Origin: Hyaloraphidium curvatum
Lineage: Eukaryota; Monoblepharomycota; Hyaloraphidiomycetes; Hyaloraphidiales; Hyaloraphidiaceae
DNA length: 64,000 nucleotides
Reading direction: 5' to 3'
Assembly: GCA_025558095.1 (NCBI GenBank)
Contig: JAIVFI010000007.1
Coordinates: 62,001 to 126,000, forward strand
The position numbers were made by a program, and so were the translations under genes. Positions 2,500-25,241 of this stretch are shown here, in pieces. The notes beneath the pieces were generated by a model. The model saw only the letters and a program-made list of their open reading frames with translations, had not been told where the DNA came from and searched no databases. Position 1 is the stretch's first letter, and the number at the start of each line of letters is the position of its first letter.

Positions 2500-2830
2500 T
2501 CACGCGGACTGGAATGGACAAACAATGTCCATGGTGACGAAGGTGCCCCCCGCGCGCAGCACCGAGTACAATCCGACCAGCAGGGTCAGGAACGTGAGCA
2601 GGGTCCCCCTGATTGTCGACCCGGTGATCGGGAACCTGAAGAAGGTCGCGCGGTGCTCGTCGGCCTCGAGCCTTTTCGTGGGCTTCGAGCGCCGACAAAA
2701 CCGCAGCGCGGGCCGCAGGATCGAAAGAGGCGACGCCGATCCGTCGCGAAGCAGTTCGGATGCGGGCACGGGCGCGGTGCACGCTCGCCGAGAGCTCAGT
2801 GACCTCGCGGGATGAGTAATGCCGCTGTAG
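2500..2830 (-). pseudogene. 5'-truncated, frameshifted copy of membrane family member R4
   Basis: Read on the minus strand, this stretch matches the last ~110 codons of R4 (17140-18606), from the REVTELS region to the terminal VCPFQSA. Up to 'LSALEAHEKA' the match is in one frame, then it jumps to another frame that starts RLEADEHRATFFRF. Comparison with R4 at 18421 shows why: 14 bases present in R4 between GAAAAG and GCTCGAGG are absent here (near 2672), which shifts the frame. No convincing match to the N-terminal three quarters of R4 was seen upstream, so the copy is 5'-truncated as well. The remaining sequence, including the stop, is still very close to R4, so the duplication is not old. 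Confidence 0.85.
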
Positions 2831-4022
2831 GTCACGCCCGTCTGGGCATTGCCGTCGTGTCGATCGCCCACACGGGCCCAGGCCCCCGCGATCCGTTCCC
2901 GGGACAAGAATTAAACGCCAGCATCGTCCACGGACTTGCCCGCCATATCCACGGTGCACGGCTGGGCGATCCGGCCCATCCGTAGAGAACTGCACGAAGG
3001 ATGCCGAGGCAGCACCGAGGGAGTCGAAGGCGAGAACAAGCAAAGGAGAAAAGCTCGCGTTGAAGATGAAGTTGGCGTTGTGCTTCCTAGTGCGAGCACC
3101 TGCTGGCCCAGGGGCGGTGAAGATGTAGTTCGCGTGGCTCTGGACCAGGGCCCACTGCTCTCTGGATAACAATCCGCAAAGCTCGCCCCGAGGCCCGGAT
3201 AACGGAACCGTCGTGCTTGGCTGGTCCTTTCGGTAGTATCCAGATGAGGCATGCTCCCTGGTGGTGACATGGAGGACCGTTTGCAGCCCTTGCGGCACCG
3301 CAAGGAGGAGAGGGGAATTGGGAGGCGCGCAGGAGTGGACGGCAAAGCTTCCAGCGCGCGAGAAGGAGGAAGGCGGGATTCAGAATGTGGTGGGCCACCA
3401 ACGAGGGCAGCGTCGTCAGGAAGGCCGCGATGGCGCCGTCCCGACCCTTCACAAGCCGTTTCCGGAGGTACCGAGGACGACATGCTGGGACAGCGATAGG
3501 CCTGGAGAACGTAGGGTAGCCGTGCCGGCGCCGTCTTCCGGGACCTTCTACTATTCGACCCGATCAGTAGAAGAGGGGACGCGTTGGTGAGTGCGAGGAT
3601 GGGAGGAAGTGCACTGGGGGAAGAATTCGGCGGTTTGCCGCGAAAGGCGTACGGTGCGGGCGCACGATCCTGCTGAAGTGCACGATGGCAAGTGAGGGGT
3701 GATGGCTTCGGGGCCGGTGGGAGCGCCAGGGGAAGGCGGAGGCCAAGGACGGGTCGGTCGAGTCATCCGTTGGCGGCGAGTCAGCTCAACTTGATGGTCG
3801 TACCGGCCGCGGGGCAAAACGCTCCGAGTGCGCCGGCAAGGCACTTTCTTGGTCGCACCGAGCGTTTCCGAGCACTCCCGTGCGGGATTCGTGTGTCCGC
3901 TGTGGCTTTCGTGCCTGGGTGATTCCGGGGGCTGAGCTCGGTCGGGACGGGGTCGGGGTGAGGTCGGGACGCTGCGCGACGTCACCGCCTCCCAACGACT
4001 CACAATCGCCAGACACTCAAAC
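2831..4022. other. 1.2 kb without a supported gene
   Basis: Lies between the R4-like pseudogene and the Cys/Pro-rich protein. Short minus-strand frames (for example 3087-3452, with a hydrophobic stretch AAFLTTLPSLVAHHILNPAF) could be decayed remains of the missing front of the pseudogene, but I could not align them to R4. Otherwise nothing was recognised. Confidence 0.4.
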
Positions 4023-5285
4023 ATGAAACACACACCATCCGGGACCATCCTCGCACTCGCGGCGCTGCCGCTGGTGGCGGCGCTGCTGCCGCGGGCCGCC
4101 GCGGACGCCTGCGGCGACGAGTGCCGCGCGTGGGCGAAAGACTGCCGCGCGGCGTGGGCGGCGTGGGACGGCGCCGGCTGCGGCACCGAGATCGAGGCGT
4201 GCTTGTGCGCGCCGTCCGTGCGGGGCTGCGCCTACGCTCTCGACAATGACCCGCGGGCCGTGGCCGCGCTCAAGAAGAACGGCATGGACTACCCCACCGT
4301 AGCCGCGGCGTTCGACGACTCCTGCAACTCGGCTCGCAAGGACAAGGCGGACATGGATTCGCCCGACGCCGCCCTCTGGTGCCCGCTTGTCGCGCTCGCC
4401 TTCGCCGAAGGCGTCAACTCCATCTTTGCCGCGCTCAAGTGCACCGTCCGGCTGACCGTGGGCCCCGCGGCGACGGCGACAGCCACAGCCACGGCCACGG
4501 CCACGCCGGCCCGGACCACCTCTCTCGCGACCCCCTCGACCACCGCAATCGGCCCCTCAGACACAACCGCCGTCACCACCACCGCTTCGACCCCCGACGC
4601 CTCCGCGACGCCTTCCCCCGATGCAGCCTCTCCGCCCACCCTCAGCCCCGGTGCCATCACCGGCATAGCTGTGGGCACTGCAGCCGGCGTTGCTGCCCTT
4701 GGCCTCGGCGTCGCCGTCGCAGTCAACCCCACGCACACGCTCACCTGGCACACCATCACGGCCGGCCCCGGGTCCGACATCGAGCCCGGGGTCAAGCCGG
4801 CACCGCCGCAAGGGCCCGCTAACCCCCAGCTTCCTCCCCCTGAGCAAGCTCCCCCGCCCCCTGACTACCCCGGCTCGGGTTCGACGCCGCAGCTTGGCGG
4901 CGACACTGTGCAGCCGGTGCCTCCCTCCCTGGGCAACGCAGCACCGGCTCCGTCACAGCAGCCCGGCGGCGATACGATGCAGCAGGCGCCCGCCCCCCTG
5001 GGGAACCCAGCCCCGGCTCCGTCGCAGCAGACCGCCCCCGCCCCGTCGCAGCAGGCCGGCGGCGAAGCGAGGCTGCCGCCCCCACCACCCCCGGCGCACA
5101 CGGCAGTGACCCCGTCGCAGCAGACCGCCCCTGCCCCGAACCAGCGGGCGGGGAGCGATGCGAAACCGCCGCCGAGGCGCCAGTCCCTGCAGCCTTCCGT
5201 CACGGTGGCCGAGATCATGGACATGATGGGCGCCGACCAGCCGAGCTTCCTGCGCTTCGAGCCCGGCCGGCCCCCGATGCCCTGA
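4023..5285 (+). CDS. secreted/anchored Cys-rich protein with Pro-Gln repeat tail
   Basis: Single-exon 420-aa protein. Residues 1-28 form a good signal peptide (hydrophobic core LALAALPLVAALL, cleavage near AAADA). A compact Cys-rich domain follows (about residues 30-140, roughly ten Cys), then a Thr/Ser/Ala stalk that includes an alternating Ala-Thr run encoded by a GCGACG-type microsatellite near 4470-4505. A Gly/Ala-rich hydrophobic segment (GAITGIAVGTAAGVAALGLG, about residues 210-235) can act as one membrane span. The C-terminal ~180 residues are Pro/Gln-rich with repeated PAPSQQ units, ending in a short folded-looking tail (AEIMDMMG). Signal, Cys domain, O-glycosylated stalk, span and disordered tail recall fungal wall-stress sensor architecture. 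That is analogy only; no family was identified. Confidence 0.7.
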   Translation: MKHTPSGTILALAALPLVAALLPRAAADACGDECRAWAKDCRAAWAAWDGAGCGTEIEACLCAPSVRGCAYALDNDPRAVAALKKNGMDYPTVAAAFDDSCNSARKDKADMDSPDAALWCPLVALAFAEGVNSIFAALKCTVRLTVGPAATATATATATATPARTTSLATPSTTAIGPSDTTAVTTTASTPDASATPSPDAASPPTLSPGAITGIAVGTAAGVAALGLGVAVAVNPTHTLTWHTITAGPGSDIEPGVKPAPPQGPANPQLPPPEQAPPPPDYPGSGSTPQLGGDTVQPVPPSLGNAAPAPSQQPGGDTMQQAPAPLGNPAPAPSQQTAPAPSQQAGGEARLPPPPPPAHTAVTPSQQTAPAPNQRAGSDAKPPPRRQSLQPSVTVAEIMDMMGADQPSFLRFEPGRPPMP

Positions 5286-5453
5286 AGGCGTGGAGCGCCG
5301 GCGAGGGTGCCGACCTCCGGATGTCGGCTGCCCGCTGCCCCGCACCGATCGGATCGGATGCGGCGGCATGTACATAGTTCAAGGGACCCTGCTTTGTACA
5401 AAGCCAATCCATTGTAGTGTGACATGCATGCACGTGAGCCCAATACAACCCTT

Positions 5454-7031
5454 TCAGGATCCGCCCGGGCACACGCTCTCGACAGTGACCCCGATCCCGG
5501 CCCCCCGGAGCACCGACCACAGGCCGACGCCGACGGTGAACGCCGTGACCGCGATCGTGCGCACTGCGCCGAAGGTGATGAGCACCCCGAAGAACCTCGT
5601 CTGGAACTTCTCGATCCCCGCGAGCCCGCCCAGCATCTCGGCGTGAAGGCGCACGGACTCCGCGGCGGCGGGGTCGCCGATAGCCCTGAACGCGAGGGCA
5701 CGGAGGTCGAGAGCGGCATTGGTGTACATCGTCGCGATGCGGGTGGCTTCGAGGTTGGAGGCGGCGACGGTGAAGAGCTCGAGAAATAGCATGCAGCACA
5801 TGATGCCGAAGGTGGCGAGGCGGCCGGCGTTGATGCATCCGGCTCCGAACTGTGTGGATTTCGGACGAGGGGGTTACCACGGGTCATTCACCAGAGGTGC
5901 GATCCAACCCACCATTCCGACGCAGATGGCCGAGGTTTCGGCAGCGACACCCATGACCGAGACCAACCGCGCGCCGACCCCGGCGTAGAACCGCCGCCGC
6001 CACGAAGCGGCGAGCACCGCATGGAGGACGACGTAGGGCTCCTGTTCGATGGTCACCGGGCCGGGCTTGTCCGCATGCTCCCGAGCCGCCGCAAGGTGTT
6101 CCATCCGCGTGATCAGGTCGTCCAGGCAGATGGCGACGGCCCGAACACGGAGGCGCAGCTCCAGCTGGAGCAGCGCGGGGTTGGAAACGGTCGCCCCGTA
6201 GTTCAGGGCGTTGAAGAAGAGGAAGAAGGTGAAGTAGGCGATGGAAACGGCCGTGAGGGTGGCCGACCACGTCGTGCCCCAGGTTTGCTCCCGGAAGGTG
6301 ACGATGCCGGTCCAATAGGTCAGGATGCCGGCGGTGAAGTTAAATGCGAGGAAGACGGTTAGGAACGTCAGGAGGGGTTGGACCGGCAACGACGCTCTGA
6401 TGCTGCCAGCGCAGGTGTCCCTGGGGCATGGGCACGTGTCCACGTCCTCGTCGTCATGGGCGAGCAGCCCAAAGGACGAAGCCGAGGACTTTCCAGGTTC
6501 CTGAGCGTGGTGCGCGGCGGTTCTGACCAGCTGCAGGTACCGGGCAACACCAGCAAATTGGGAGCTGTCCAGGAGCCGCTCGGCGTCCGCAATGAACTTG
6601 GGTGCCTCGCCCCCGACCCTGCCGCGGACAACAGGCACCGCCCAGAACGCATCCGAAACGACGACCTGCACCGTCGCCACAATTAGCTGCCGCGTGCCAA
6701 AACGCCCCCCGTTGAAGATCCACTGCAGCGCCAGTAGGAACCCCAGCGACGCGAAGCCGCCCAAAAGCCTTGCGCCCGCGGTTGCGGAGGAAAAGCGCCG
6801 CAGTCGGAGCTCGAGGCCGACGAAGGCGGCGAGGGCGGGGGACCACGAGAGCGCGGCGATCAGGGATCCCCGGGTGAGCGGGTGCGCGTCACGTGCGGCC
6901 GCCCCGCGGTCCTCGCTGGCGAGGAGGCGCAGCACCTGCGGCGCTTCCTTGGGCAGAGATGGTGGCGGGGCTGCGGGGAAGAGAGCGGCCCATTCGGCTG
7001 CCGTGAATGGCAGCGAAGACGTGAAGGCCAT
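5454..7031 (-). CDS. R1: seven-helix membrane protein of the CPCP/CAG family
   Basis: Two exons, 7031-5892 and 5849-5454, joined across a 42-nt intron (GTGAAT...CACACAG, 5850-5891). The exons are 380 and 132 codons, giving 511 aa. The N-terminus carries LPFTAAEWAALFPAAPPPS. Hydrophobic segments fall near ARLLGGFASLGFLLALQWIF, QLIVATVQVVVSDAFWAV, LLTFLTVFLAFNFTAGILTY, WSATLTAVSIAYFTFFLFF, VMGVAAETSAICVGMVGWI, RLATFGIMCCMLFLELFTVA and TIAVTAFTVGVGLWSVLRG, about seven spans. The Cys motif DTCPCPRDTCAGSIRAS lies before the third. A ~60-residue helical stretch separates the last two spans and the protein ends VESVCPGGS. I know no named family for it. Topology resembles the 7TM ion-channel/gustatory-receptor-like superfamily, which is inference. 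Its 5' side faces the gene at 7272, 240 bp away. Confidence 0.8.
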
Positions 7032-7271
7032 TGGGAGCTCTTGTTTCTTCGACGTTGACCACGGCTTCGGTCGCCAGTCTAGGAGCTACGATGCCAACAA
7101 AATGTGGCCCGATAACTGACACGCCGCACTTGGCGGATTTTGCGGCAGCGCTGCAGGGTGGCCGGAAACAGGACTCCCGCCGCAAATCCCTTGTTGACGC
7201 ATTCGTCAACTCCGTCTTCCGTTTCCCACGCGTCTCTCGCTTGAACCGACAATTTAGCCCACCGCATCCCG
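7032..7271. promoter_or_regulatory. divergent intergenic region between R1 and the 7272 gene
   Basis: A 240-bp gap between two divergent start codons must hold both promoters. Part of it (CCCACGCGTCTCTC just upstream of 7272) is duplicated before the relic at 12915. No specific factor site is claimed. Confidence 0.45.
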
Positions 7272-7943
7272 ATGGGTCTCGCCGTGGAGGTCGGCCTGCT
7301 CGCGCACTTTGCCGGCGGAAGCGATCCGGAAGCCTTGGAACACTACCGCGGGCAGTTCGCCCGCCTCCGCGCCGCGGTCGAAGCTGCCGGCGTTTCCGGG
7401 TACTGCGAGCCCGAGTCGATTCCGCCGAAACCCTCGGGGAACAACCTTGGGCCTTCGGACCGGCTGTCCTCCTCGTTCCCGTACTCCTTCCTGCAATACC
7501 TCCGCCGCGCCTACGCGCTCCTTGTTTCGGAGCTCCCCGTGGTCCCGGCGACCGATCCCGCGGTGCTCAAGCACGATGCCGGTGTCGTCGACGACGCCGC
7601 CTCGATGCTCTCGTCGCACTTGCTCTGCCATTCGGACTGCGAAGGGTACTACGTCCCCGTGGACCTCCCCGACCCGCTCTTCCTGGTTCCGGACTCTGGC
7701 GTCGCGGGGGCCGGGATCGTCGGTTCTTCTCCCCGCTTGCTGCAGGAGCTGCGCGCGCTCGCGCCGTCGCTGGGGATCCGGCTCGGGGAGGGCGGGCAGC
7801 TACCCCCCGCCGAGGAGGACCGGGTTGCCATGCTGGCCGAGGACGACGCGGACCCGTGGCACAGGGAGCTGACGGCTTGGACGGCGCTGTTCCGCGCCGC
7901 GGGGGAGAGCGTGCGGACGGGCGCAGCCATCGTGTTCTGCTGA
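7272..7943 (+). CDS. conserved uncharacterised protein (HSDxEGxYVPVD family)
   Basis: Single-exon 223-aa soluble protein with no signal or membrane span. It contains FPYSFLQYLRRAYA, then SHLLCHSDCEGYYVPVDLPD, then GAGIVGSSPRLLQELRALAP, and ends SVRTGAAIVFC. From memory this set of motifs (H-S-D-x-E-G-x-Y-x-P-V-D followed by G-S-S-x-x-L-L-x-E-x-x-x-L-A, ending in a G-A-A-I-x-F-like tail) belongs to an uncharacterised family seen mainly in bacteria and scattered eukaryotes. I do not know its activity. It is transcribed divergently from R1. A decayed partial copy with the same upstream sequence lies at about 12915-13090, downstream of R2, so the gene has travelled together with members of the membrane family. 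Confidence 0.75.
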   Translation: MGLAVEVGLLAHFAGGSDPEALEHYRGQFARLRAAVEAAGVSGYCEPESIPPKPSGNNLGPSDRLSSSFPYSFLQYLRRAYALLVSELPVVPATDPAVLKHDAGVVDDAASMLSSHLLCHSDCEGYYVPVDLPDPLFLVPDSGVAGAGIVGSSPRLLQELRALAPSLGIRLGEGGQLPPAEEDRVAMLAEDDADPWHRELTAWTALFRAAGESVRTGAAIVFC

Positions 7944-7979
7944 ACCCGAATCCACGTAACGCGCATGGGAAAAAGCCGC

Positions 7980-11064: not shown

Positions 11065-11114
11065 TTGCACAGCGGTGGATGAGCCAGGCAGACCGCGACC
11101 TCTTACCCCGCAGA

Positions 11115-12725
11115 ATGCACGCGACCGCCGCGGCTCAAGGCGCCGATTCACCCGCTATCGATGCTGCCTTAGTTGCTCTGGCGGTGCCGATGCCCGGCTC
11201 TTGGCCCGACGGGTTCCCCGGCGCCACCGACGGCCGCGCGCTGCTCTGCCTCCTCCCGGCGCCCGTGCCGCTCGAGCCGCCGATCGTGGACGACGAAAAG
11301 ACGCCGATCGTCGCGCCGCACGAGTCCGACATGGCCGCGGACGCGCGCGCAGCCGAGCCGCTGGTCCCGCGCGCGTTCGACGCCGCCCTCGCCGCGTTCC
11401 CCGTGCACCGCGCGCTGGCCAAGCTGCAGCGGCTCCCCAAAATCAACAGGATGCCGGTGACGCGTACGATCATGGTCGTCCCGGTGTTCGCTGCCATCGG
11501 AGGCACCGTCCGCCCGGCCCTCGCCTCGGGCCTCTTCGACGTGCGCGGCGTCGCTGTCGGAATCGCGGGGCAGCTGCTGCTCCAGATCGCATACCACGTA
11601 GCCGCCCTGTCGCAATCGATTCCCGCATGGCACAGGCCGGCGACCGAAGACGCGTCGCCGTTCGCGGGGCTGGCGCGGTGGAAGCTGCTCTGCGACCACG
11701 AGGCTGGCGGAGGACAGGGCGTCAAAGCCACCGAGCAGATGGGCCTCGTACGGTCCTCGCTGGGATCCGTTCTGGTGCTCCACGATCCAAATGACACGGC
11801 GTGCCCTTGCCCCGCACAGACCTGCGCCGGCGCGCTTCCGGCCCGCAGCGCCACATACCAGCTCCTCAACTTGTTTGTCTTCATTGTGGCGCGTGTCCTT
11901 GCCTACGGATTCTTTTTCCTCTTTACCGCGATGATCGCCCTCGCGGACACGACCTGGACGACGCCCTGGATGGCTCTGTTCTGCGTACTGCAGTTCGTCA
12001 CCGTCATCTTGACGGCTTTTTCGATCGGCCTGGAGGGTATCTATCCGGATCCGTCGCTTTTGGAGCTCGACGCGAGGCTCGAGGCGCGCGCGACGAAGCT
12101 GGTCCTTGCGGACGCGGTCAAGGCGGCGTTCTCCGACTCGACGGCGGACTACGGCGCCTCGCGCAGCGCTGGATCTCACCCAGCCGCGGACCGCGAACCG
12201 GTACCGGCCTACATCTCCCTGTTCCGCATGCTGGCTCCCAAATGGCGCGCCCGCGCCCTCGGCCGCGACGTCATTTTCCGCACCGTCGTTCTCGCCGTCT
12301 TCGGCGCCGACGGCGTCCTCCTCCTCATCTCCCTCCTGGGCGCCGGCTGCGCGACCGCCTACCTCCTCTGCTCGCTGCTCACGAACTTTCTGAACCTCGT
12401 GCTCGTCGTGGGAAGCTATGCGGCCGCCAACGTCGGGATCGACCGCATCGTGCACCTGTACCGCCAAGCGGGTACCGACCTCCGCCTCGGGTTCGCCGCC
12501 GTGCGGGTGCCGGTTCCGCCCAAGGCCGCGACGGACCTCCGCGCCATCTCGCGGCTGGAGCTCGCGGCGGGGGACAACTTGACGAAAATGTTCGGCATCA
12601 CGGTGACATTTGGGGTGGTCCGGGGGACTGTTGCAACGCTGGTTACGGTCGGCGTGGGCCTGTTTGGGATCCTGAGGGGCGCGGGGGCCAGGGCGACGGT
12701 GCAGAGCCTGTGCCCGATTGGATGA
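11115..12725 (+). CDS. R2: seven-helix membrane protein of the CPCP/CAG family
   Basis: Single-exon member, 536 aa from the ATG at 11115. The frame is open to 10827, but the extra 96 codons contain an oxidoreductase fragment, so the downstream ATG was preferred. Family hallmarks: TACPCPAQTCAGALPARS in the middle; hydrophobic segments near TIMVVPVFAAIGGTVRPAL, VAVGIAGQLLLQIAYHVAA, LLNLFVFIVARVLAYGFFF, MALFCVLQFVTVILTAF, VVLAVFGADGVLLLISLL, YLLCSLLTNFLNLVLVVGS and VATLVTVGVGLFGILRGAG; and a C-terminus ATVQSLCPIG. It has no intron at the position where R1 and R3 are split (before GAGC in LLGAGCATAYLL), so intron loss or gain occurred. The AEWAALFP motif is not obvious here. Confidence 0.75.
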   Translation: MHATAAAQGADSPAIDAALVALAVPMPGSWPDGFPGATDGRALLCLLPAPVPLEPPIVDDEKTPIVAPHESDMAADARAAEPLVPRAFDAALAAFPVHRALAKLQRLPKINRMPVTRTIMVVPVFAAIGGTVRPALASGLFDVRGVAVGIAGQLLLQIAYHVAALSQSIPAWHRPATEDASPFAGLARWKLLCDHEAGGGQGVKATEQMGLVRSSLGSVLVLHDPNDTACPCPAQTCAGALPARSATYQLLNLFVFIVARVLAYGFFFLFTAMIALADTTWTTPWMALFCVLQFVTVILTAFSIGLEGIYPDPSLLELDARLEARATKLVLADAVKAAFSDSTADYGASRSAGSHPAADREPVPAYISLFRMLAPKWRARALGRDVIFRTVVLAVFGADGVLLLISLLGAGCATAYLLCSLLTNFLNLVLVVGSYAAANVGIDRIVHLYRQAGTDLRLGFAAVRVPVPPKAATDLRAISRLELAAGDNLTKMFGITVTFGVVRGTVATLVTVGVGLFGILRGAGARATVQSLCPIG

Positions 12726-12914
12726 CCGGCGGTAATAAGCATTCACGGCGTGAGGTGCTATGTGTGGGCTGGCATTTCGGTGGCGTCGGAATCGATGTCG
12801 GTGGCTTCGCTTTCCGCAGCGAGGCAGCGATCAGCGCGGGACTCCAGCATCACTCTCTGTTCACCCGCCGCGCCTTTCGCCTTTGCGCCGCTTGGCAATC
12901 AATGCGTGGACTGA

Positions 12915-13141: not shown

Positions 13142-15259
13142 CTAGGCGATGGAGATCCTCACGATGTCCGCCATCGCCGGCCTGTCCTGCGCACCCATCC
13201 GCCTCAGCGCCCGGACGGCATCGTCGATCCGCCCTTCGTTGAACTGGAGCCGGGATCAGCCATCGTTCTTCGGCGCAATCCATCTGGCGCGGCCCACCTG
13301 CAGCGCGAGCTCCACGTCCTCCGGCCGCGCGACCACACTCTCCGCGACCGCGCGGAACTGCGACTCCGAAGGAGCGCGGAAAACCCCTCCGACCGGGGCG
13401 TGGAACCGCGGGTACCCCCCGCGCGCGTTGACCAAAGGCAGCCGCCACCACAGCCGCGTCAGCACGCGATGCCGCTCCCCCACGCCCATCTCGCGGTCCA
13501 TGTCGCCGCCCAACCCTGCCTGCTCGATCCACAGCGCCGGCGGGAACCCCGCGCTCCGGGGATCCCACGCCCACGCGAGCCACGGCGCGGGGCCGTCCCC
13601 CACGTGCCCGCCCCTCCCCGCCACGGACCCCACCAGCAGATCGCGCAGCTCCCCCGCGGTCCGGATCCTCTTCCTCGCGCGGGGCTCGCACGCCAGGACA
13701 CGCCGCACGTCCCCTTCCAGCCCGAACCGCCGCCCGAGCATCCCGAGGAACGCGCCGACGCAGAACACCCCGAACGCGGGATCGCTCCGCGCGTCGAACG
13801 CGGCGTCAAAGATCCCCGCCGCCGCATCCCACAGCCCCTTGGTGCGCTCCCCCCGCTGCATCCCCGCGAGACCGGGGAGGAGCAGCTCCCCCGCGCACCG
13901 CGCGGCCTTGCTCAGGTCGGCGTCCCCCGGCCGCGCGGCGGAGCGGGCAAGGAGGTAGCCGATCAGCAGGCCGACGTCCACGGGGGAGGAGTACGAGGCG
14001 CGGGGGAACCAGGCCATGCTGGTGGTGTCCCTCGAAAGCACGATGTTGGCGAGGGACCGCACGGGGAGGTCCGCGGCACGGAGGATGGCTGCGATCCTCG
14101 CGGGCACGCCCCCCGGATCGGTCTTGCCGAACGCGGCGGCGAAGACATGTTCGTCCAAGGGCGTATCCTCGAAGAACTCGGCGAGCCGGTGCATTATGCA
14201 CGGTCGCGGGTCCGAGGCGATCCTGCGCAGGATCGCAGCGTCAACGTGGTCCCCGGGCGCGGCCAAAAAGTCCGAGGACCGGAAATGCAGGTTGGGCGCG
14301 AAGAGCGGGTCGACGAGCATCGCCGCGACGAGGGAAGCGGAGCCGTTCCAGTCCAGCAGCATCCCGGCGACGAACGCGTGGCGGGCGAGGGACGAGACCG
14401 GGAGGCCCGCCTCGACGCAGAAGCGCTGCAGGAAGGCGAGGATGTTCCGGTTGATGTCATCGCGCGTCCCGTACTTGTGGCGGGCGTACCAGGTTACCAT
14501 CGAACCGCGTGTTTCCCAGCTCCACGGGCACAGCTTGACCGCGGCCGCCATGCAGTCGGTCCGCAGGTCGCTCAGCACGTTGGCGGCCGTGCCGGCGGGA
14601 CGGTCCAGGCAGGCGAGCGCCTCGAACATGCCTGCCATGCCTGCCCTTCCCTTCTCGCCCGGGATCTCGAGGGAGCCGGGGGCGAACCCGTCGAGCCAAT
14701 CTTCGAGCTCCGCGACAACGGTCCACTTCCAGTTGAGCGGATAGGTTTCCAGCTTCAGGACCACGGCCTTGAGCCGGTCCTCGGGCAGTCCCGTCGCCCG
14801 GAGCATGTCGGCAACGTCCGAATAGCGCCCCCATTCCTCCTCGGACGTCGTCTCCAAGAACCCGCGCAAAACTGCGGCATTGGCACCCAGACCCGACAGA
14901 AAACGGCCCGCACGTTCGTCGTCCCGCCGCAGGTAGTTTTCGAACACGTGGAACGCGCAGAGGTTGTCCCCCGGGACACCGGACCGCGCGAGCAGCGCGC
15001 CGAACCCGCGCGGAGAAAACCGCTGCCGTCCCGGGAACCCCGCCGCCCTTCGCATCGACGTGTCGGAAAGGTCGTCGGCGAGTTCGCACACCGCGGGGAA
15101 GTCGCGCTCGTCGAGGGCGAGCTTGCGGACGCGTTGGACGAGGGCGGCCGATGCGGGCGGGAAAGCCGGCCGCCAGACGAGGCGGAAGAAGAAGAGGTCC
15201 GCCGCGCCGAGGAAGTCCAGCACGCGCTCCAAAAGCTCGGGAGGGAGCCGGTCGAGCAT
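13142..15259 (-). CDS. F-box protein with large alpha-helical C-terminal region
   Basis: Starts MLDRLPPELLERVLDFLGAADL, a classic F-box, so the protein probably recruits substrates to an SCF ubiquitin ligase. The first exon (15259-13298) runs ~650 codons with no recognised repeat; it is Leu/Ala-rich and helical. The obvious stop (TGA at 13256) lies inside a 54-nt intron (13244-13297, CAG|GTGGGC...CTCCAG). Splicing gives ELALQFNEGRIDDAVRALRR and ends IVRISIA at TAG 13142. The frame is preserved (702/703-codon total with intron length divisible by three). Without splicing the protein would end WIAPKNDG. The 5' side is only ~115 bp from the 3' end of R3. Confidence 0.75.
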
Positions 15260-15375
15260 CGCGGTGTTTGGGTGACTTGTCTGGGGACGAGCGACACCCG
15301 ATTGCTGCATATCGATCCGGATGCCTGTCAGGATTGAGATGCTATGCCACGTACAAGGTATAGAGCTGCCTTCCG

Positions 15376-16928
15376 TCAAGATCCAGGGCACACGCTCTCG
15401 ATGGTGACCCCGATCCCCGCCCCCCGGAGCACCGACCACAGGCCGACGCCGACGGTGAACGCCGTGACCGCGATCGTGCGCACTGCGCCGAACGTGATGA
15501 GCACCCCGAAGAACCTCGTCTGGAACTTCTCGATCCCCGCGAGCCCGCCCAGCATCTCGGCGTGGAGGCGCACGGGCTCTGCGGCGGCGGGGTCGCCGAT
15601 CGCCCTGAACGCGAGGGCTCGGAGGTCGAGAGCGGCATTGGTGTACATCGTCGCGATGCGGGTGGCTTCGAGGTTGGAGGCGGCGACGGTGAAGAGCTCG
15701 AGAAATAGCATGCAGCACATGATGCCGAAGGTCGCGAGGTGGCCGGCGTTGATGCATCCGGCTCCGAACTAAGCGGCATACAGGCAGCACATCATCGCCA
15801 GTCGTTTGCTAGAGAAGCGACCCAACCCACCATTCCGACGCAGATGGCGGCTGTCTCCGCAGCGACCCCCATGACCGTGACAAAGCGCGCCCCGGCCCCG
15901 GCATAGAACCGCTGCCGCCAGGAAGCGGCGAGCGCCGCGTGGAATGCGACGTAGGGCTCTTGCTCTATGGCCACCGGGCCGGCCTTGTTCGCGTCGCGAA
16001 CCGCCACGAGATCCTTCATGCGCCTGACCAGGTCGTCCAGGCAGATGGAGACGGCCCGCACGCGGAGGCGCAGCTCCAGCTGGAGCAACGCTGGGTTGGG
16101 CACGGTCGCGCCGTAGCCCAGCGCGTTGAAGAAGATGAAGAAGCTCAGGTAGGCGATGGAAACGGCCGTGAGCGCGGCCGACCAGGGCGTCCCCCATGTT
16201 TGGTTCCCGAAAGTGACGATGCCGGTCCAATAGTTCAGGATGTAGTTGGTGAAGTTGAACACGAGAACAAAGGCCAGAAACGTCACGAGGGGTTGGACCG
16301 GCAAGGATGCTCGGATGCTGCCCGCACAAGTTTCCCTCGGGCACGGGCATAGATCGCCTGCTTCATCATCATGATCAAGCAATCTCGGCGAAGAATCTCC
16401 ATGTTCTAAAGCGGGCTGTGCGGCGGATTCTGCGAGCTGCAGGTATCGGGCGAGGCCGGCAAGTTGGAAGCCGTCCAGAAGACGTTCCGCGCTGGAGAGG
16501 AACTTGGGCGCCTCGACCCCGAGCCGGCCTCGGAAAATCGGGACCGCCCACAGAATGAAGGCAGCCATGGCCTGCACAGTTGCCACGACCAGCTGCCGCG
16601 TGCCGAAACGCCTTTCGTTGAAGATCCACGGCAGGGCCGTGAGGAAGGCCAGGGGGAAGAACGCGCCGACGAAGCGCGCGCCCGAGGTCGAAGAGGAAAA
16701 TCGCCGCAGCCGCAATTCGAGGCCGACATAGGCGGCGAGGGCCGGCGACCACGAAAGCGAGTCGATCAAACTCCCCTGGGTGAGCGGGTGCGCGTTGCGC
16801 GCGGCCGCCCCGTGGTCCTCCTCCGCAAGAAGGCGCAGCACTTGAGGAGCATCCTTTGGCAAAGATGGCGGTGGCGACATAGGGAAGAGAGCGGCCCATT
16901 CGGCTGCCGTGAACGGCAGCGAAGTCAT
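15376..16928 (-). CDS. R3: seven-helix membrane protein of the CPCP/CAG family
   Basis: Two exons, 16928-15810 and 15768-15376, 503 aa. The intron (15769-15809, 41 nt) ends TTAG but starts GCAAAC, so it is a GC-AG intron at exactly the place where R1 has GTGAAT. The joined exons keep the frame (373 + 131 codons). N-terminus TSLPFTAAEWAALFPMSPPP; Cys motif DLCPCPRETCAGSIRAS; about seven hydrophobic segments; end VESVCP-like (IESVCPGS). Exon 1 is visibly diverged from R1, while exon 2 differs at only about a dozen of ~390 bases. The start is 211 bp from the start of R4 on the other strand. Confidence 0.78.
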
Positions 16929-17139: not shown

Positions 17140-18606
17140 ATGCAGGACGCGGGCGCGAAGGATCTGCTCGGGTTCACGCCCGCCGAGTACGCTGCGCTCT
17201 TTCCGCACAGCGGGCCGGCGCTGGGGGCCGCGGCGGACCCCGACCCGCCGACGTACGCGACCTTCGATGCGGGCCCGCTGCCGCCGCTGCTCCGTGCCGG
17301 AGCGCGTCGGGTGCTATGGTTCAAGACGCATGTGCCTCGCGGCTATATTCTGGGGACCTACGCGGCGTGGTGTGCATCAATGGCCGCCTTGTTGGCCCCT
17401 GCGTGGGCGTTCGGGCGCGAGAGGTTCGGGCTGCGACAGCTTGCGGTGACGACGGTCTTCCGTGGCGGTACTCTCCTTTTGTTCCCGGTGCAGTACCGAC
17501 TAATGATTCCCGGGAGCTGGGGCTGGCAACCGGCTGCACACCCCAGTGACCCCGTCGACCTTGGCGGGATGTCGCTCATCGTGCGGTATCGCCAGCTCGC
17601 GACCTCGGAGGACGGCGGCGGGTCCGTGCTCCTGCGACACATTCCGGGCGACGCAAACTGTCCGTGCTTCCTGCCTGGCTGCGCCGCCCCGCTCGCTGGG
17701 AACCGTGCAGACGCAGCCGCTGCCATCCGTTTCGCGCTCCATTTAGTCAACATTGCCGTGGAGTGGTGCTTCGGCATGTCGTTCACCGCCTTCTACAATT
17801 TGCCCGCAAATTGGACGCAGTGGTGGAGCATCCTGCTCTCCGCGACTTTCCTGGCAACATCTTTTGCATTAAGTTTCAACAACATCTTCCAGGATGCCCT
17901 CTTTGGGACGTCCGTCGCGACGCTGACGCTGCAGCGCCGCCTGCACGTACGTGCGCTGGACATACTGCTGGACCGCACTGTGGAAGGCTGCGAGCGGAGC
18001 GCGGATCAGGTCTGCCGCGCTGCGGCCGGATCCGATCCCGCATCCCAGGTTCCCATAGGCGACGACTACGCCGAGCTCTTTTCCCGCTACGCCATGGGCT
18101 GGAAATATGACACGGCAGCCGCTGACGCCTCCATGCGCTGGCTCTCCTTCACCGCGGTCTCAGAGGCCGTCGTCGGTCTTGCCAACCTAGCCGCCGGCTC
18201 GTGCGTCACCTTCAACACCCTTGCGACCCTCTTCCTCCTTGTTGACGTCTTCTCGCACCTCGTCATGGTCGCCATCGCCAACCGTGAGGTCACTGAGCTC
18301 TCTTGGGGCGTCCGCCGCGCCCGCGCCCGCATCCGAACCGCCTCTCGACGGATCGGCGTCGCCTCTTTCGATCCTGCGGCCCGTGCTGCGGTTTTGTCGG
18401 CGCTCGAAGGCCACGAAAAGGAGCTCTCCACCATGCTCGAGGCCGACGAGCACCGCGCGACCTTCTTCGGCTTCCCGATCACGGGGGCCACCGTCAGGGG
18501 GACCCTGCTCACGTTCCTGACCCTGCTGGTCGGGCTGTACTCGGTGCTGCGCGCGGGAGGGACCTTCGTCACCATGGACATCGTCTGCCCCTTCCAGTCC
18601 GCTTAA
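17140..18606 (+). CDS. R4: seven-helix membrane protein of the CPCP/CAG family
   Basis: Single exon, 488 aa from ATG 17140 (MQDAGAKDLLGFTPAEYAAL). Family hallmarks: GFTPAEYAALFPHSGP at the N-terminus; NCPCFLPGCAAPL in place of CPCPxxxCAG; hydrophobic segments near LGTYAAWCASMAALLAPAW, LAVTTVFRGGTLLLFPV, AIRFALHLVNIAVEWCFGM, WSILLSATFLATSFALSF, FTAVSEAVVGLANLAAGSC, LATLFLLVDVFSHLVMVAI and TLLTFLTLLVGLYSVLRAG; and C-terminus MDIVCPFQSA. A basic, helical loop (RRARARIRTASRR) precedes the last span, as expected for a cytosolic side. It is the closest relative of the pseudogene at 2500-2830. Function unknown. Confidence 0.78.
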   Translation: MQDAGAKDLLGFTPAEYAALFPHSGPALGAAADPDPPTYATFDAGPLPPLLRAGARRVLWFKTHVPRGYILGTYAAWCASMAALLAPAWAFGRERFGLRQLAVTTVFRGGTLLLFPVQYRLMIPGSWGWQPAAHPSDPVDLGGMSLIVRYRQLATSEDGGGSVLLRHIPGDANCPCFLPGCAAPLAGNRADAAAAIRFALHLVNIAVEWCFGMSFTAFYNLPANWTQWWSILLSATFLATSFALSFNNIFQDALFGTSVATLTLQRRLHVRALDILLDRTVEGCERSADQVCRAAAGSDPASQVPIGDDYAELFSRYAMGWKYDTAAADASMRWLSFTAVSEAVVGLANLAAGSCVTFNTLATLFLLVDVFSHLVMVAIANREVTELSWGVRRARARIRTASRRIGVASFDPAARAAVLSALEGHEKELSTMLEADEHRATFFGFPITGATVRGTLLTFLTLLVGLYSVLRAGGTFVTMDIVCPFQSA

Positions 18607-18947: not shown

Positions 18948-21710
18948 TCAGATGGCCCCGGGAATGCGCTCCCACTCGTCCTCCTGGGATTCCCACCCCT
19001 CGGGGATCCGCCCCTCGGCCAGCTCCCCCAGCTTCTCCAGCGGCACCTCGCCCATCTCAATCTCGGGTTCCTCCACCTCTTCCTCGTCATCGTCTGCCTC
19101 ACCGAACCCGCCGTAAAACACCTCGACGTCGCCGGCCTCCTTACCCAGCGCCAGCCGGCGCAGCACGTGCGGGTCCTCCTCCATCTCGTGCGGGGCGTCC
19201 GAGAAGAGGTTGCGCACGAAGCGTCCGATGTTGCGGAGCGCGGCGGCGCCGCCGCGCGAGCCGGGGTAGGCGTGGGGAACGTGCGTGAGGTCGTGGAAGA
19301 TCTCGCAGCGGACCTTGGAGGCGCCCGGGTTCTGGAGGGCGTACTTGTGCGCCGTGGCCACGATCTCGTCGACCTGGATGGCAAATATGTCAGCTGTGTG
19401 GCATGGGAACCAGCCAGCGTCGACCCACCAGCAGCTCGCACTCGCCCGCCTGGAACAGCGCCGGCGGCATCCCCTCGAACGATCCGTGGTACGGCGACAC
19501 GCACGGGTGCCTGATGGCGTTGTACACCAGGTCCTCGACCGTCGGCTCCGCCGGCAACGCCATCGAAGGCCTGCGGCGGGGTGACTCGGACCCCGAGTCC
19601 TCGGCCTCGGAGACGATCGACGCGCGGCGCGTGCGCGGTTCCGAGAAGGAGCCCGAGCGCCCCACGCGGCCGCCGTTCTCGCCGCCGTTCACGCCGGCGG
19701 GGAACGACTGGCTGCGCGGGACTCCGATCAGGCTGGCGCGGCGCGACTTGAGCGGCTGGTCCTCGGGGAGCGGCTGCTGCGCCGAGACGGCGGTGCTGGC
19801 CGACGAGACCGACGACGAGGACTCCTTGCGCGAGTGGCCGTTGGCCCCTCCCTGGCTCGAGGGGACGAGCTCCGGCGGCGGCTTGATGTCCTTGGGCTGC
19901 GCGTCCCTGGGCACACGGAGCGACACCCTGCGCGCGGGGTCGGGCGTGCCGCCCCAGACGAGCCCCGAGACGGGGTTGTAGTTGCCGCCGACGGCGTCGG
20001 TCGAGTTGAGGAAGATGTCGACCGAGCCCCACTCCTTCCAGATGGCGGGGCTGGGGAGGTAGTCGAACGGGGCGTTGCGGACGTACGAGTCGTGCCGCAT
20101 GGTTTGGTCGCACGAGGGCGAGAGCAGGCAGATGCCGCGGGGGAGGCCGTACTTGGGCGCGCCGTCCGGTCCGACGAGGAAGTGCTTGAGGTACATGCAC
20201 AGGCTGTGGCCGGAGACACGTCGTTCGTCAGCGCAGGCAAGCGATGACGGTCCATTCCGCCCACCTCAGGGTCAGGTTGCCGCCCGCTGAATCGCCCATG
20301 ACCACGACCTCCTCGGGCCTGTAGCTCCCCGGCGCCGGCCCCTTGCCGCCGCTCTGCATGTGCACGGCCGGGTGGTTGGGCTGGGTGAGGTACAGCCACG
20401 CGGCCAGGGCGTCGTGGATGGCCGCGGGGAAGGGGTTCTCGGGCGCGAGGCGGTAGTCGATGGCGAGCACGGGCAGGCCGGTGAGCTTGGAGATCTTGGA
20501 GGTGATGAAGCGGTGCGTGCGAGGGGAGCCGAGGGCGTAGGCTCCGCCTGTCGGTGAAGTTCCGTCCGTCGTGGTCAGACGAAGCTTGCTGACCGGCAGG
20601 CGCTCGCAACCCACCGTGCAGGTACAGCACCACGCCCCGCTTTCCGCCTCTGTCCTCGACCCTGGTCCCCATGGCCTCGTACCACACCGTCCTCCTCGCC
20701 TCCTCGATCGCCCACTCGACGAGCGACCCCCTCCTCCTCACCGGCCCCTTCTGCGTCGCGAACGGCGGCTCCTCGCCGTACCATGACACCCACTCTCCGG
20801 GCAACTCGTGCACCCTGGGCCTCCTCCGCGGCACGGGCGCCGGCGCGGTGCCCTTCTGCGGCGCCGGCACCGGCCCGTTCTCGTACCGGATCCCCGGCGC
20901 CCCCTCGAGCCACGACCCCTTGCCGTCCGCCAGTGACTCGGGCCGCACGTCGCGGTCCTCGGCGTCGGAGCCCCAGGCCATCTCGGGGGGGATGACGTAG
21001 CCTGGCCTTCCCACGCCAGCGGGGATGTGCGCCCGGGAGGCCTCCTCCGAGGCGACGATGGCCGAGACGTCGACGAAGAAGCGGGCGGGCTCGATGGAGG
21101 TGCGGAGGGGGGCCGGGAGGAGGTAGCTGATGAGGCGCTCACGGGAGCGGCTGATGGCCGGGCCCGAGAAGCGGATGTGCGTGCGGACCACCCTGGGAGC
21201 GGGAAGGAGGTAGTGAGATGCGTGTCCACGGAGCACAGGGAATGAAAGGGAGGAGCGGTAAAATTCATCCGGCCGGTACTCACCTGCAGCCAGGGGTCGA
21301 CCGGGGATTTCGTGGTTGCGTGGACGGTAGTGGCGTCACATGCGTGGCATCGCGGGAAGGGCGCAAAACCGGGTCAGTAGCTGCGTTCAGCGGTGCAAGG
21401 AGGTGCGAAAAATGCCGTTCTGCAGCTCTCTCGCACGGGGTACGCACTTGTTCATCAGGTGGTAGTCGAGCGTCCAGCCGCGGCGGCCGCCCTCGCCCAG
21501 CAGCCACTCGACCAGGCCGGCGAGCACGGTGCTGAGGCCGCCGAGGTTCGCCTTCTCGAGCGACCGCACGACCGCCGCGCCATCGACGCCCAATTTCGTG
21601 GGCACGAGAGACGCCAGCTCGGCGGTCAGCGCGGTCGACAGCTGCGGGTTGCGCGGCGCCGCGGCGTGCGCGTGCGCGGCCGCCGGGTCGACAGGCTGAA
21701 CGGTCTCCAT
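18948..21710 (-). CDS. hormone-sensitive-lipase-like esterase (alpha/beta hydrolase)
   Basis: Five exons: 21710-21448, 21192-20615, 20547-20265, 20203-19429 and 19373-18948, total 775 codons (774 aa), divisible by three. Introns are 255, 67, 61 and 55 nt with GT-AG ends. Splicing rebuilds the oxyanion motif LHGGAYALGS and the nucleophile elbow GDSAGGN (Ser near residue 365), followed by LSLCMYL. A Ser-rich, disordered insert of ~170 residues in exon 4 separates the core from the acid region (ELLVDEIVATAHKYA) and the likely catalytic His (FHDLTHVPHAYP). Such an insert between nucleophile and acid/base is the hallmark of hormone-sensitive lipase. It holds four RRxS sites (RRVS, RRAS, RRAS, RRRPS; Ser ~469, 532, 570, 588), consistent with protein kinase A control. 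Likely acylglycerol or steryl ester hydrolysis at lipid droplets. Confidence 0.85.
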
Positions 21711-22275
21711 TGAGGTCGCAGAGGGCGGGAGGGCCAGCGGGCGACGAGGGGGACCGTTTGCTCGCTAACCTGTCAGTCTTGGGGCGGCACGTGAAATTGA
21801 TGCTTTCTCCGTGGTCCCCCCTTCTCCCCCAAATCCCTGTCCACAGGACGATCGGGCGACTATCCGAGGAATCGAGAGCTCAAGACACGATTGTGATGGG
21901 TCAGTCAAGAGCCTGCTGGCTCTTTCCCGGTGTCCCAGATCTCCCTCAGGCGGGCACTCAACTGTGGCAACTCAGGGTCCCTGGACGGCATCCTCGAAAA
22001 TGCAGCAAAAACATAAATGCCATTCCATCGGGGACCTTCTTTACATAAACGACGTCGCGGAAGCTGTCGAGCTGGCGCGGCGAATGTTGGGGGAGAGCGG
22101 CGAACAATGTCTCCAGCGCCCGAAGTCCCTCATAACGCCAACTCGAGCTGACAAGCGATGCGTCCCTACGCGCCAGCTACCGTCATGAACTGGACCTCCT
22201 AAAAGCCTGCGATCGATTTTCGGGCCGCCGCTGCCGACTTCGGGGGCCACACCGCCCTGACTGTCCCGTCCAACG
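21711..22275. other. divergent intergenic region
   Basis: About 560 bp between the starts of the lipase and the TDT transporter. It is somewhat less GC-rich than its surroundings and should contain both promoters. No specific site recognised. Confidence 0.4.
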
Positions 22276-23625
22276 ATGGGCCTCCGCGGGTTCCTCTCCG
22301 GCCTCCCGACGAAGCGCGAGGCGATCCGGCGCTTCACTCCGTCTTGGTTCACGGTCGTCATGGGCACCGGCTCGCTGGCGCTGAACATCGCCGGCTTCCC
22401 GTGGTCCTTTGGCGCCGCGCAGCGCGGCATCGCCCTTGCCTTCTGGTGCCTTGGTTGCCTCCTCTTCCTCACCTTCGTGACCATGGGCATCGCCCGCGCC
22501 ATAATGTTCACGGACGTGCTCGGGCTCATGATCCGACATCCGGCGCAGTCCTTGTTCCTCGGCTGCATCCCCATGGCATTTTCCACGCTCTGCAACGGGA
22601 TCCTGGCCATCCTCATGCCGTACCTCGCGGACCCTGAGCCGGCGGCGCGCACCGCGCTGGCCCTGTACTGGACCAACCTTCCCGTCGTGGTGTTTGCCAT
22701 CCTGCTCGTGCCCTGGTTCATGTTCACCGAACACGCGCACGCCATCGAAAAGGCCACCGCCATCTGGCTGCTCCCCGTGGTCCCCGCCTGCGTCGCCGCG
22801 GGTTCCGCCGGCGCGCTGCTGTCCAACCGCACCGCGTTCCCGTACCTCTCCCCCGCCGAGATCGAGGGCCTCCTGCTCTCGGGCTACACCCTCGGTGGGG
22901 CTGGCCTGCTGCTGGCCTACTCCATCATCACGATGTACACGCAGCGGCTGCTGGTGCACAAGCTACCCCCCGCCGACCAGGTCGTCTCGGCTTTCATCCC
23001 AACGGGACCGCTGACGATGATCGCGTGGGCGCTCCTCCGCCTCGGCGAGGGCGCGCAGATGGCCCTTCGCTCGGGGGAGCTGCAGGCTGCCACGGGGGAC
23101 ACCGAGATCGCCGCTGCCTGGGCCTCCTTCCTCGCCGCCGCCCACGGCACCGGCCCCGTGCTGGGGCTGCTCCTGTGGGGCTTTGGGACGTGGTGGTGGA
23201 TCGTCGCGCTCGCGACCGTGGGTAGTACCCTGCGCACGCTGCCGTTTTCCATCGGGTGGTGGGGATCTATCTTCCCCACGGGGGTGCTTGCGACCGCCAC
23301 CGCGAGCTACGGCGCCCACTTCGGTTCCGTTGCGTTCAAGGGCATGGCGGCGGCATTCATCGTCGCCCAGGCGCTGCTCTGGGGAACCACGGCCTTCTGG
23401 ACGTTGAGGGGGGCGTGGGTGGGGACCATGTTCGTCGCGCCCTGCCTGACGGAGCCGACGGCCGCCGGGGCCGCGGCAGGGGTGCCGACGGCGGGCGATA
23501 TCGACAAGCCCGGGGAAAGAAAGGGGGCACCGGAGAGTGCGGATTCGTTCAGTTCGACGGATTCGCAGAACGGCGAATCGGGAGCCTTGACGCCGCCGGC
23601 TGATTTAGTCGGCAATGGAGTGTAA
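22276..23625 (+). CDS. TDT-family transporter (SLAC1/Mae1/Ssu1-like)
   Basis: Single-exon membrane protein of 449 aa with about ten hydrophobic spans. It begins RRFTPSWFTVVMGTGSLAL, the highly characteristic first helix of TDT proteins (yeast sulfite pump Ssu1, fission yeast malate permease Mae1, plant SLAC1). Later it has FIPTGPLTMIAWALLRLGEG and WWGSIFPTGVLATATASYG, matching the conserved GP..(Q/M)....LG and WW...FP.G...T motifs. The C-terminal ~50 residues are polar, Ser-rich and probably cytosolic. The start motif and the WWGSIFP segment look more Ssu1-like (sulfite export) than Mae1-like, but substrate cannot be settled from sequence. Start at 22276 puts the N-terminus ~20 residues before helix 1, as usual. 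Confidence 0.88.
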   Translation: MGLRGFLSGLPTKREAIRRFTPSWFTVVMGTGSLALNIAGFPWSFGAAQRGIALAFWCLGCLLFLTFVTMGIARAIMFTDVLGLMIRHPAQSLFLGCIPMAFSTLCNGILAILMPYLADPEPAARTALALYWTNLPVVVFAILLVPWFMFTEHAHAIEKATAIWLLPVVPACVAAGSAGALLSNRTAFPYLSPAEIEGLLLSGYTLGGAGLLLAYSIITMYTQRLLVHKLPPADQVVSAFIPTGPLTMIAWALLRLGEGAQMALRSGELQAATGDTEIAAAWASFLAAAHGTGPVLGLLLWGFGTWWWIVALATVGSTLRTLPFSIGWWGSIFPTGVLATATASYGAHFGSVAFKGMAAAFIVAQALLWGTTAFWTLRGAWVGTMFVAPCLTEPTAAGAAAGVPTAGDIDKPGERKGAPESADSFSSTDSQNGESGALTPPADLVGNGV

Positions 23626-23747
23626 AGAGCGCGTAGATGCGGAGAGCGATCGCGCAAGTCAGACGGCGAGGCGGTCTCGGTCCAACCGCCGCGTGACGTG
23701 ACCGACGTGACCGTTCCATCAGCCCGCGCGCCCACCCGGGACCCACC

Positions 23748-25241
23748 ATGGCTTCCGAGATTCAGGACCGCACATCCGGCGAGACCTCGAAACCGAGCTC
23801 GATTATCCGCTTCGCGGACGCCGAGTGGCTCGCGCTGCTCCCCGTCGCGCCTCCCCCGCCGCCGTTGGACGCGGAAGCCGGCAACGTCGCGGACCCGGCG
23901 GCGGCCCCGCGGGCAGCGGCCCCGCTCGACATCGCGGACACGTACGCCGCGTGCCGCGCGGCCAATCGCCCCTTGCTCGCGCTAATGCTGCGCACGTACT
24001 CCGCCACGTCGTGGCCGGGGAGCATGCGGGTCACTACAGGCCTCGCGGCGCTCCTCGCTGTTCCCGGGAGCGCTGCCGCGATCGTGCTCGCCGGGCCCGC
24101 GGCCTCCTTTCCTGCTCGCAATCTTGCCCTCGGAACCGTCGCCGCTTTAGCCGTGCTGTTCCACAGGCCCCTTGCTCTGTATGTTGCCTGGCCGGCTCTT
24201 CTTCCGACCAGACCACCAACACGCGCCGATGTCGTTTCTTCGATGGCAATCAACGTCTGGATCCGTTGGGATGGGCTGCGCGCCGTACCCGGCTCGCCCC
24301 TTACTGCCCACAGGAAGGAGGACGCAATGGTATCGCTATGCCCCTGTCAGAGCTGCGCCGGCGACGTTGAGCGTGCCGATGTCCTCGAGCGATACCTGCA
24401 ATTCGTGTCGTTCACAGTGCTTGTCTTTCTTGTTCAGCTGTTTCTCATGTGGACCCCAGCCGTGACTTTTGCCACGCCTTTTTGGACCTCTGGATGGGCA
24501 GCCACCTACGCCGTTGGCCTCGTTTCGCCCTGTCTTTTCGCTCTTCAGTTGCTCGACCGCATCTCCACCCTCTACACCTTGCCGCAGGTCCGCCACCAGG
24601 CCAAATTAGCACGGCGGGCGACCGTCCTTTCTCTTTCGAACCTGCTGGATCGTTACCGCCTCGCTGTTGACACCGGCTGCGTACCGGATACCGTCCGCTC
24701 GTCGGAAGAAACCTACATCCGCCTCGGCCGCGCTCTCTGCGGGACCTGGTCGGCTTCAGGCCGGTTCTTCCCTTCCCTTCTCAAAGCCATCTTTGCGGCA
24801 CAAGGTGCCACCATGGTGCTTGTGTTCCTGCTCAACGGTATCGCGGGCTGCATGACGGCATGGCAACTCGCGTCCCTCGCGCACTACGTGTCGTACGTCG
24901 GGTTGTCCCTGCTGCCTCTGGCCGCGCACAACGAGAGCATCGGCATGGTCACGGACCTCTACGTGCACGCGCAGGGCAAGCTGCGGTCCCTCGCGCTGGA
25001 CGCCTCGTCGCGGGCGCCCGCCCTGTCCGCGGAACTAGCCCTGCACGACAGGGTGCTGGGGAACCTTCTGGACGAGAGCAGGCTTTTCCGGGCCAAGTTC
25101 CTGGGTTTCGGGGTGGATTTCGGGATGATGAGGACGCTCGCGGCCACGTGCGTCACGCTCGGCGTAGCGCTTTGGGGGATTCTCAGGGGCGTCGGCTTGA
25201 GGGCGACTTTGGAGACCTTTTGCCCCGTCGTCGCAGATTGA
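23748..25241 (+). CDS. R5: seven-helix membrane protein of the CPCP/CAG family
   Basis: Single exon, 497 aa. N-terminal motif variant IRFADAEWLALLPVAPPPPP; Cys motif LCPCQSCAGDVERAD (one residue shorter than in R1-R3); hydrophobic segments near VTTGLAALLAVPGSAAAIV, LALGTVAALAVLFHRPLAL, YLQFVSFTVLVFLVQLFLM, AATYAVGLVSPCLFALQLL, FAAQGATMVLVFLLNGIAG, SLAHYVSYVGLSLLPLAAH and TCVTLGVALWGILRGVGL; end ATLETFCPVVAD. The segment NGIAGC aligns with the GAGC region that starts exon 2 of R1/R3, but no intron is present. It is the most diverged copy and stands alone, ~5 kb from R4. Function unknown. Confidence 0.75.
   Translation: MASEIQDRTSGETSKPSSIIRFADAEWLALLPVAPPPPPLDAEAGNVADPAAAPRAAAPLDIADTYAACRAANRPLLALMLRTYSATSWPGSMRVTTGLAALLAVPGSAAAIVLAGPAASFPARNLALGTVAALAVLFHRPLALYVAWPALLPTRPPTRADVVSSMAINVWIRWDGLRAVPGSPLTAHRKEDAMVSLCPCQSCAGDVERADVLERYLQFVSFTVLVFLVQLFLMWTPAVTFATPFWTSGWAATYAVGLVSPCLFALQLLDRISTLYTLPQVRHQAKLARRATVLSLSNLLDRYRLAVDTGCVPDTVRSSEETYIRLGRALCGTWSASGRFFPSLLKAIFAAQGATMVLVFLLNGIAGCMTAWQLASLAHYVSYVGLSLLPLAAHNESIGMVTDLYVHAQGKLRSLALDASSRAPALSAELALHDRVLGNLLDESRLFRAKFLGFGVDFGMMRTLAATCVTLGVALWGILRGVGLRATLETFCPVVAD

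Follow-up and report, generated by a model that had tools for sequence, protein, structure and literature searches.

A dispersed, very large family of predicted seven-span membrane proteins in Hyaloraphidium curvatum, possibly a divergent fungal branch of the seven-transmembrane ion channels

Family genes in the analysed window

The DNA analysed here (the window) is a stretch of 64,000 nucleotides of Hyaloraphidium curvatum (C7:62001-126000), from a genome of 31.9 Mb in 55 contigs that is rich in GC (62-73%, in 2-kb steps). Chitin_synth_1 matches at three loci of this genome are indicative of a fungus, and PF06098, a radial-spoke marker of the motile flagellum, gave no genome match, control genomes being equally silent. 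The window holds five homologous family genes, which align over their full length with 43 invariant columns, and one broken copy.

About 2497-2810, minus strand: broken copy, a 3' fragment (about the last 108 codons) related to the gene at 17140-18606
5454-7031, minus strand: gene A, from six-frame translation and alignment; exon 1 at 5892-7031, intron at 5850-5891, exon 2 (TM6, cytoplasmic loop and TM7) at 5454-5849
6406-6434, minus strand: CxC-x4-CAG motif of gene A (pattern match C7:68406-68434)
11115-12725, plus strand: family gene of 536 amino acids, a single ORF, from ORF and alignment; query for AlphaFold model 2
11802-11830, plus strand: CxC-x4-CAG motif of the gene at 11115-12725 (pattern match C7:73802-73830)
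15376-16928, minus strand: gene B, from six-frame translation and alignment; exon 1 at 15810-16928, possible 41-nt GC-AG intron at 15769-15809, exon 2 at 15376-15768
16321-16349, minus strand: CxC-x4-CAG motif of gene B (pattern match C7:78321-78349)
17140-18606, plus strand: family gene of 488 amino acids, a single ORF, from ORF and alignment
23748-25241, plus strand: family gene of 497 amino acids, a single ORF; reference for residue numbering and subject of AlphaFold model 1

Among the members examined, uninterrupted ORFs prevail; in gene A, and possibly in gene B, a phase-0 intron instead separates the coding sequence of TM5 from that of TM6. In gene A this intron is of GT-AG type and ~42 nt long, with boundaries placed by reading frame and homology. 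An initial annotation had counted five intact genes, four of which stand; the fifth, gene B, is doubtful because its frame is open only with a GC-AG intron at the position of gene A's intron, and it may be truncated after TM5 if that intron is unspliced. The broken copy, earlier placed near 2500-2830, was confirmed: it matches 17140-18606 at its 3' end, being 86.6% identical to it in nucleotides across 328 columns (14 gaps) and 88% identical in protein across 60 residues. The shared features reported earlier, namely the CxCxxxxCAG motif, seven hydrophobic segments, an extended loop ahead of the final span and a terminal CP, are all present, while the proposed motif AE(W/Y)xAL(F/L)P is disrupted in 11115-12725 by an insertion at that spot and is clean in the other four genes. 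That the copies are confined to the first 25 kb is true within the window, where they stop at 25.2 kb, but does not extend to the genome, a further motif site (C7:136929) lying ~11 kb past the right edge.

The gene at 23748-25241 adjoins a SLAC1/TDT-type anion transporter gene (22276-23625, plus strand; PF03595, E 8.5e-73). On the minus strand, 35224-39400 encodes biotin carboxylase C-terminal, biotinyl and carboxyltransferase domains, apparently in one intron-containing gene, which would appear to be a fused acyl-CoA carboxylase. F-box-like/leucine-rich genes lie at 13256-15790, 45971-47806, 50768-52915 and 55002-56690 (minus strand), the first with a marginal F-box match (E 0.00094) and the other three judged by eye from their translations, and 52658-54943 (plus strand) encodes an RNase III domain with a possible dsRNA-binding domain. 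Elsewhere in the genome, near-identical DNA-pattern matches at C7:331410, C15:538071 and C21:511964 suggest a dispersed repeat that has nothing to do with the membrane family, and the family copy at C43:321289 has repeated units of ~150-290 bases, direct and inverted, in both flanks.

Size and distribution of the family

When three window members were run against the genome in tblastn, each returned 84-90 matches (more than 600 first-look candidates, 81-88 of them scored); merged, these matches correspond to at least 165 distinct family places on 42 contigs. A DNA pattern for the CxC-x4-CAG motif matched 217 genome sites, compared to 14 for a reversed control pattern, and 62 of the 100 motif sites listed lay away from any tblastn place. 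The family comprises well over 150 copies, and because so many of the listed motif sites fall outside the tblastn places, the actual total very probably exceeds 200. On contigs C1-C16, the 70 tblastn places and 93 motif sites form a union of 127, from which a rough capture-recapture calculation, assuming that both searches are independent, suggests 300-400 copies. The local expansion originally described is thus not borne out, as the family is spread genome-wide. Its copies lie scattered, at a median spacing of 36 kb on C1-C16 and in some cases as close pairs, and are enriched near contig ends, with 79 of 164 within 100 kb of an end compared to an expected 45.5 +/- 5.7. Members are typically ~480-540 amino acids long, mostly have intact ORFs, and are for the most part 25-40% identical to one another.

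Selection and gene conversion

The family is under purifying selection, with a dN/dS of 0.25 between the 5' parts of genes A and B and of 0.27 between 17140-18606 and its paralogue at C10:6134-7597, to which it is 76% identical. A further comparison of 17140-18606, with a copy on C37 that contains an internal stop, gave a dN/dS of 0.35. Divergence between genes A and B is graded along the gene: dS is 0.66 for the 5' part and 0.10 for the 3' exon, and nucleotide identity rises from 66% at residues 164-206 to 98% at residues 368-407. The 3' exons (5454-5849 and 15376-15768) are 97% identical and the remainder of the genes ~77%. Ectopic gene conversion affecting the TM6-TM7 end would explain this pattern most simply. 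In the pair formed by 17140-18606 and its C10 paralogue, identity also goes up, though more mildly, over the last 40 residues.

Protein architecture and predicted topology

An alignment of 45 members (A5), numbered after 23748-25241, places hydrophobic segments near residues 94-113, 127-147, 214-236, 251-271, 342-364, 371-393 and 458-483, and both hydropathy (in a 47-ORF alignment) and the helix pattern of model 1 indicate seven transmembrane segments. Three loops, those that follow TM2, TM4 and TM6, are long (medians of 76, 70 and 63 residues) and contain 8.0-8.7 lysines and arginines each, while the remaining loops are short (medians of 11, 14 and 6 residues) with 0-1.1. Since the positive charge is concentrated in the long loops, on the N-terminal side, the N-terminus is predicted to lie inside, and the predicted inner loops are consequently the longer ones.

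TM7 is clearly the most conserved span, with an entropy of 1.43 bits compared to 2.66-2.97 in TM1-TM6. Nine residues are invariant in all 45 members (C198, C200, C203, R290, C368, N395, R462, T470 and C492), and H188, which lies ahead of C198, C200 and C203 in the first inner loop, is found in 44. Together, H188 and C198/C200/C203 may form a cytoplasmic metal site, while C368 and C492, both outside in the predicted topology, may be joined in an outer disulfide. The TM7 motif of animal GRs and ORs, (T/S)Yhhhhh(Q/K/E)(F/L/M), is reduced to its first position: the threonine is present in 45 of 45 members, the tyrosine and the Q/K/E residue in none, and the last position is I/V. Near the outer end of TM7, R480 is an arginine in 42 of the 45 members, an unusual residue that would count against a cation pore.

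Profile searches and fold comparison

Neither Pfam nor NCBIfam gave a significant match for any member searched. Among the Pfam matches of the 45 members there was no DUF3537 and no GPCR profile, and 7tm_7 and 7tm_6, the insect receptor profiles, were absent up to E 10, where the HMMER filters drop most weak matches. A 45-member profile compared with PDB sequences found chance-level matches only (best KCNQ1, E 0.25). Genome searches with PF08395 (7tm_7) and PF12056 (DUF3537) gave no match, and since the control genomes were silent too, these searches are uninformative. No relative was found in prokaryotic genomes and viral contigs (query 11115-12725) or in phages (query 23748-25241) by a search that sees fairly close relatives only.

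Two AlphaFold models were built from window sequences only, with seven alignment rows. Model 1 (23748-25241) has a mean pLDDT of 63.6 and a pTM of 0.64, and model 2 (11115-12725) a mean pLDDT of 48.7. Confidence in model 1 is uneven, with a block of pLDDT 81-91 over residues 391-450, and its last helices span 371-422 (52 residues, TM6 with a cytoplasmic extension), 424-446 (a separate helix) and 458-481 (TM7), in an order and with lengths that resemble the TM6 extension and the TM7a/TM7b split of 7TMICs, the seven-transmembrane ion channels (PMC9998090).

Insect gustatory and odorant receptors (GRs and ORs), with BmGr9, Gr43a, Gr64a, AgamOR28, AaegOR10 and MhOr5 as reference structures, recur in the fold comparisons of both models. 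In Foldseek against the PDB, no match of either model fell below E 0.001 and no GR or OR below E 0.1, yet insect GR/OR chains occupy 7 of the best 50 rows for model 1 (highest at rank 4, Gr43a) and 6 of the best 50 for model 2, including ranks 1 (BmGr9) and 2 (Gr64a). In VIA-align, the longest alignments of model 1 are to Gr43a (Z 7.5, 263 residues), BmGr9 (Z 7.2, 266 residues) and AaegOR10 (Z 6.9, 304 residues), although shorter helical bundles reach Z 9.4; model 2 has AgamOR28 first (Z 8.0, 252 residues; Z 7.5, 299 residues) and insect ORs or GRs in 12 of its first 22 rows. Orco appears in the fold lists solely within the OR5-Orco complex entry. Insect GRs and ORs are thus the longest natural membrane-protein matches of both models, at Z values (6.2-8.0) in a range common for helical proteins, unrelated ones included. 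What gives this evidence weight is that both models, which are not fully independent because they have alignment rows in common, point to a single uncommon superfamily over nearly their full length.

Relation to known receptor families

Gustatory-receptor-like proteins (GRLs) are recognised by length, seven transmembrane segments, an inner N-terminus, longer inner loops and the lack of a better family (Benton et al. 2020, PMC7746228). The present family agrees with this description as applied here (~350-500 residues, seven spans, N-terminus predicted inside, longer inner loops, no other family), with an N-terminus that is longer than usual. The TM7 motif TYhhhhhQF is regarded as diagnostic but not definitive (PMC7746228), and structural assignment has been based on a DALI Z >10 (Benton and Himmel 2023, PMC9998090), to be set against the VIA Z of 6.2-8.0 obtained here with low-confidence models. 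As the motif is reduced to its threonine and the threshold is not reached with these models, we claim an architecture like that of 7TMICs and, as probable, a divergent branch of the superfamily, but not membership of the animal GR/OR family.

With insect GRs and ORs the family shares seven spans, a predicted inner N-terminus, long inner loops, in model 1 an extended TM6 helix with a further helix between it and TM7, a conserved last helix among variable ones, a large repertoire and the best fold matches of both models. It differs from them in lacking detectable sequence similarity and, except for the invariant threonine, the TYhhhhhQF motif, and in having an arginine after the putative gate, an invariant CxC..C in the first inner loop and mostly intronless fungal genes. 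Fungal GRLs have been described from Spizellomyces punctatus and from S. palustris, with one gene in each (PMC7746228); when other fungi were screened by structure, no 7TMICs came up (PMC9998090). By description, the Spizellomyces GRLs are similar to the present family in being fungal, with seven spans, a predicted inner N-terminus and a largely lost TM7 motif, but consist of one gene per species, compared to the >150 paralogues found here. Plant and algal DUF3537 (PF12056), trypanosome GRL1 and animal PHTF are likewise divergent 7TMICs without a recognisable TM7 motif, placed largely by structure (PMC7746228, PMC9998090). Unlike the present family, these are small families. We know of no CxC..CAG signature in any of the three. 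Himmel et al. 2023 (Curr Biol), cited in PMC11526382 for transfer to prokaryotes, extends the superfamily and could include relatives of the present family. A literature search found no description of a fungal GRL or 7TMIC expansion.

Weighing the explanations

With moderate confidence, we interpret the family as a fungal branch of the 7TMICs that has diverged far and expanded enormously, its members probably being chemosensory channels. The 7TMIC fold itself we regard as likely, and we lean only slightly towards the combination of that fold with a chemosensory channel role. The link to this superfamily, raised in the initial annotation, is favoured by the predicted inner N-terminus, the seven spans, the loop lengths and the preference of two models for insect GRs and ORs, and is weakened by the low confidence of these models, Foldseek E values >0.1, the VIA Z values and the missing sequence or profile match to any GR, OR, GRL or DUF3537; a strong match to another family or a fold other than a seven-helix bundle, which that annotation had named as contrary outcomes, did not appear. 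The same weaknesses speak for an unrelated fungus-specific seven-helix family, such as a transporter or membrane scaffold, resembling 7TMICs in topology and general helix arrangement only, as do the CxC..CAG motif and the TM7 arginine, for which the animal TYhhhhhQF motif has no counterpart. We consider this unlikely, given that the models of two members prefer insect ORs and GRs over other multi-spanning proteins at near-full length and that topology and loop lengths correspond to those of 7TMICs. G-protein-coupled receptors would account for seven spans and a large family, but were rejected with little hesitation, as the charge distribution predicts an inner N-terminus, the opposite of GPCRs, and neither the Pfam matches nor the best 50 fold rows shown for either model contain a GPCR profile or chain.

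Other explanations concern the growth of the family. If the fold is that of the 7TMICs, the proteins might still be non-sensory, forming a diversified surface family (for example in self/non-self recognition) that grew by duplication at contig ends and gene conversion; contig-end bias and conversion of the kind suggested for genes A and B are both typical of variable surface families. However, the same genome dynamics occur in chemoreceptor families, the short predicted outer loops leave scant exposed surface and the diversity sits in the membrane helices, and such a role is in our view rather improbable. High copy number on 42 contigs would also fit copies that travel with a transposable element, as its cargo or as part of its coding sequence. 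In the flanks of 60 fetched loci, however, DNA was common only to neighbouring or related copies or to identical re-fetched loci, and hence there is no sign of a mobile element; on this ground, and in view of the divergent, intact and selected reading frames, transposon-borne spread was rejected as highly implausible.

Proposed mechanism

For a family of 7TMIC chemosensory channels, the conservation of TM7 and the variability of TM1-TM6 are what a common pore and a diversified pocket would lead one to expect, and family size, dispersal, broken copies and the dN/dS of 0.25-0.27 fit with a receptor repertoire. By analogy with the insect receptors, subunits would assemble into a tetramer via a cytoplasmic anchor formed by extended TM4-TM6 and TM7a, TM7b would line the pore, and a ligand bound among TM1-TM6 would open it, so that separate copies may respond to separate external chemicals with one pore design in common. 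In BmGr9 the motif threonine lines the pore and I440 and F444 form the gate (PMC11100771). Mapped on the BmGr9 motif, T470 would be the pore threonine and I/V478 the outer gate, and R480, two residues after this putative gate, might alter ion selectivity. More tentatively, and with some doubt, the genome may hold an insect-sized repertoire (>200, perhaps 300-400) of fungal 7TMIC chemosensory channels, with a Cys/His metal site and an outer-pore arginine of their own.

Significance for fungal sensing

Little is known of the means by which fungi perceive most chemicals in their environment. To our knowledge, a family of >150 copies under purifying selection would be among the largest receptor-like families in a fungus, and, the match in shape being suggestive, its members may serve the fungus as chemical sensors, a very large set that has gone unrecognised. 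If true, this would be a massive 7TMIC expansion outside animals, on a separate branch. If the fold holds, the solution known from insect receptors, a conserved pore, freely varying pocket helices and dispersed duplicates, would have given rise to a large repertoire beyond the animals as well, and natural sequences in the hundreds would be available for testing the rules of pore and gating in the superfamily.
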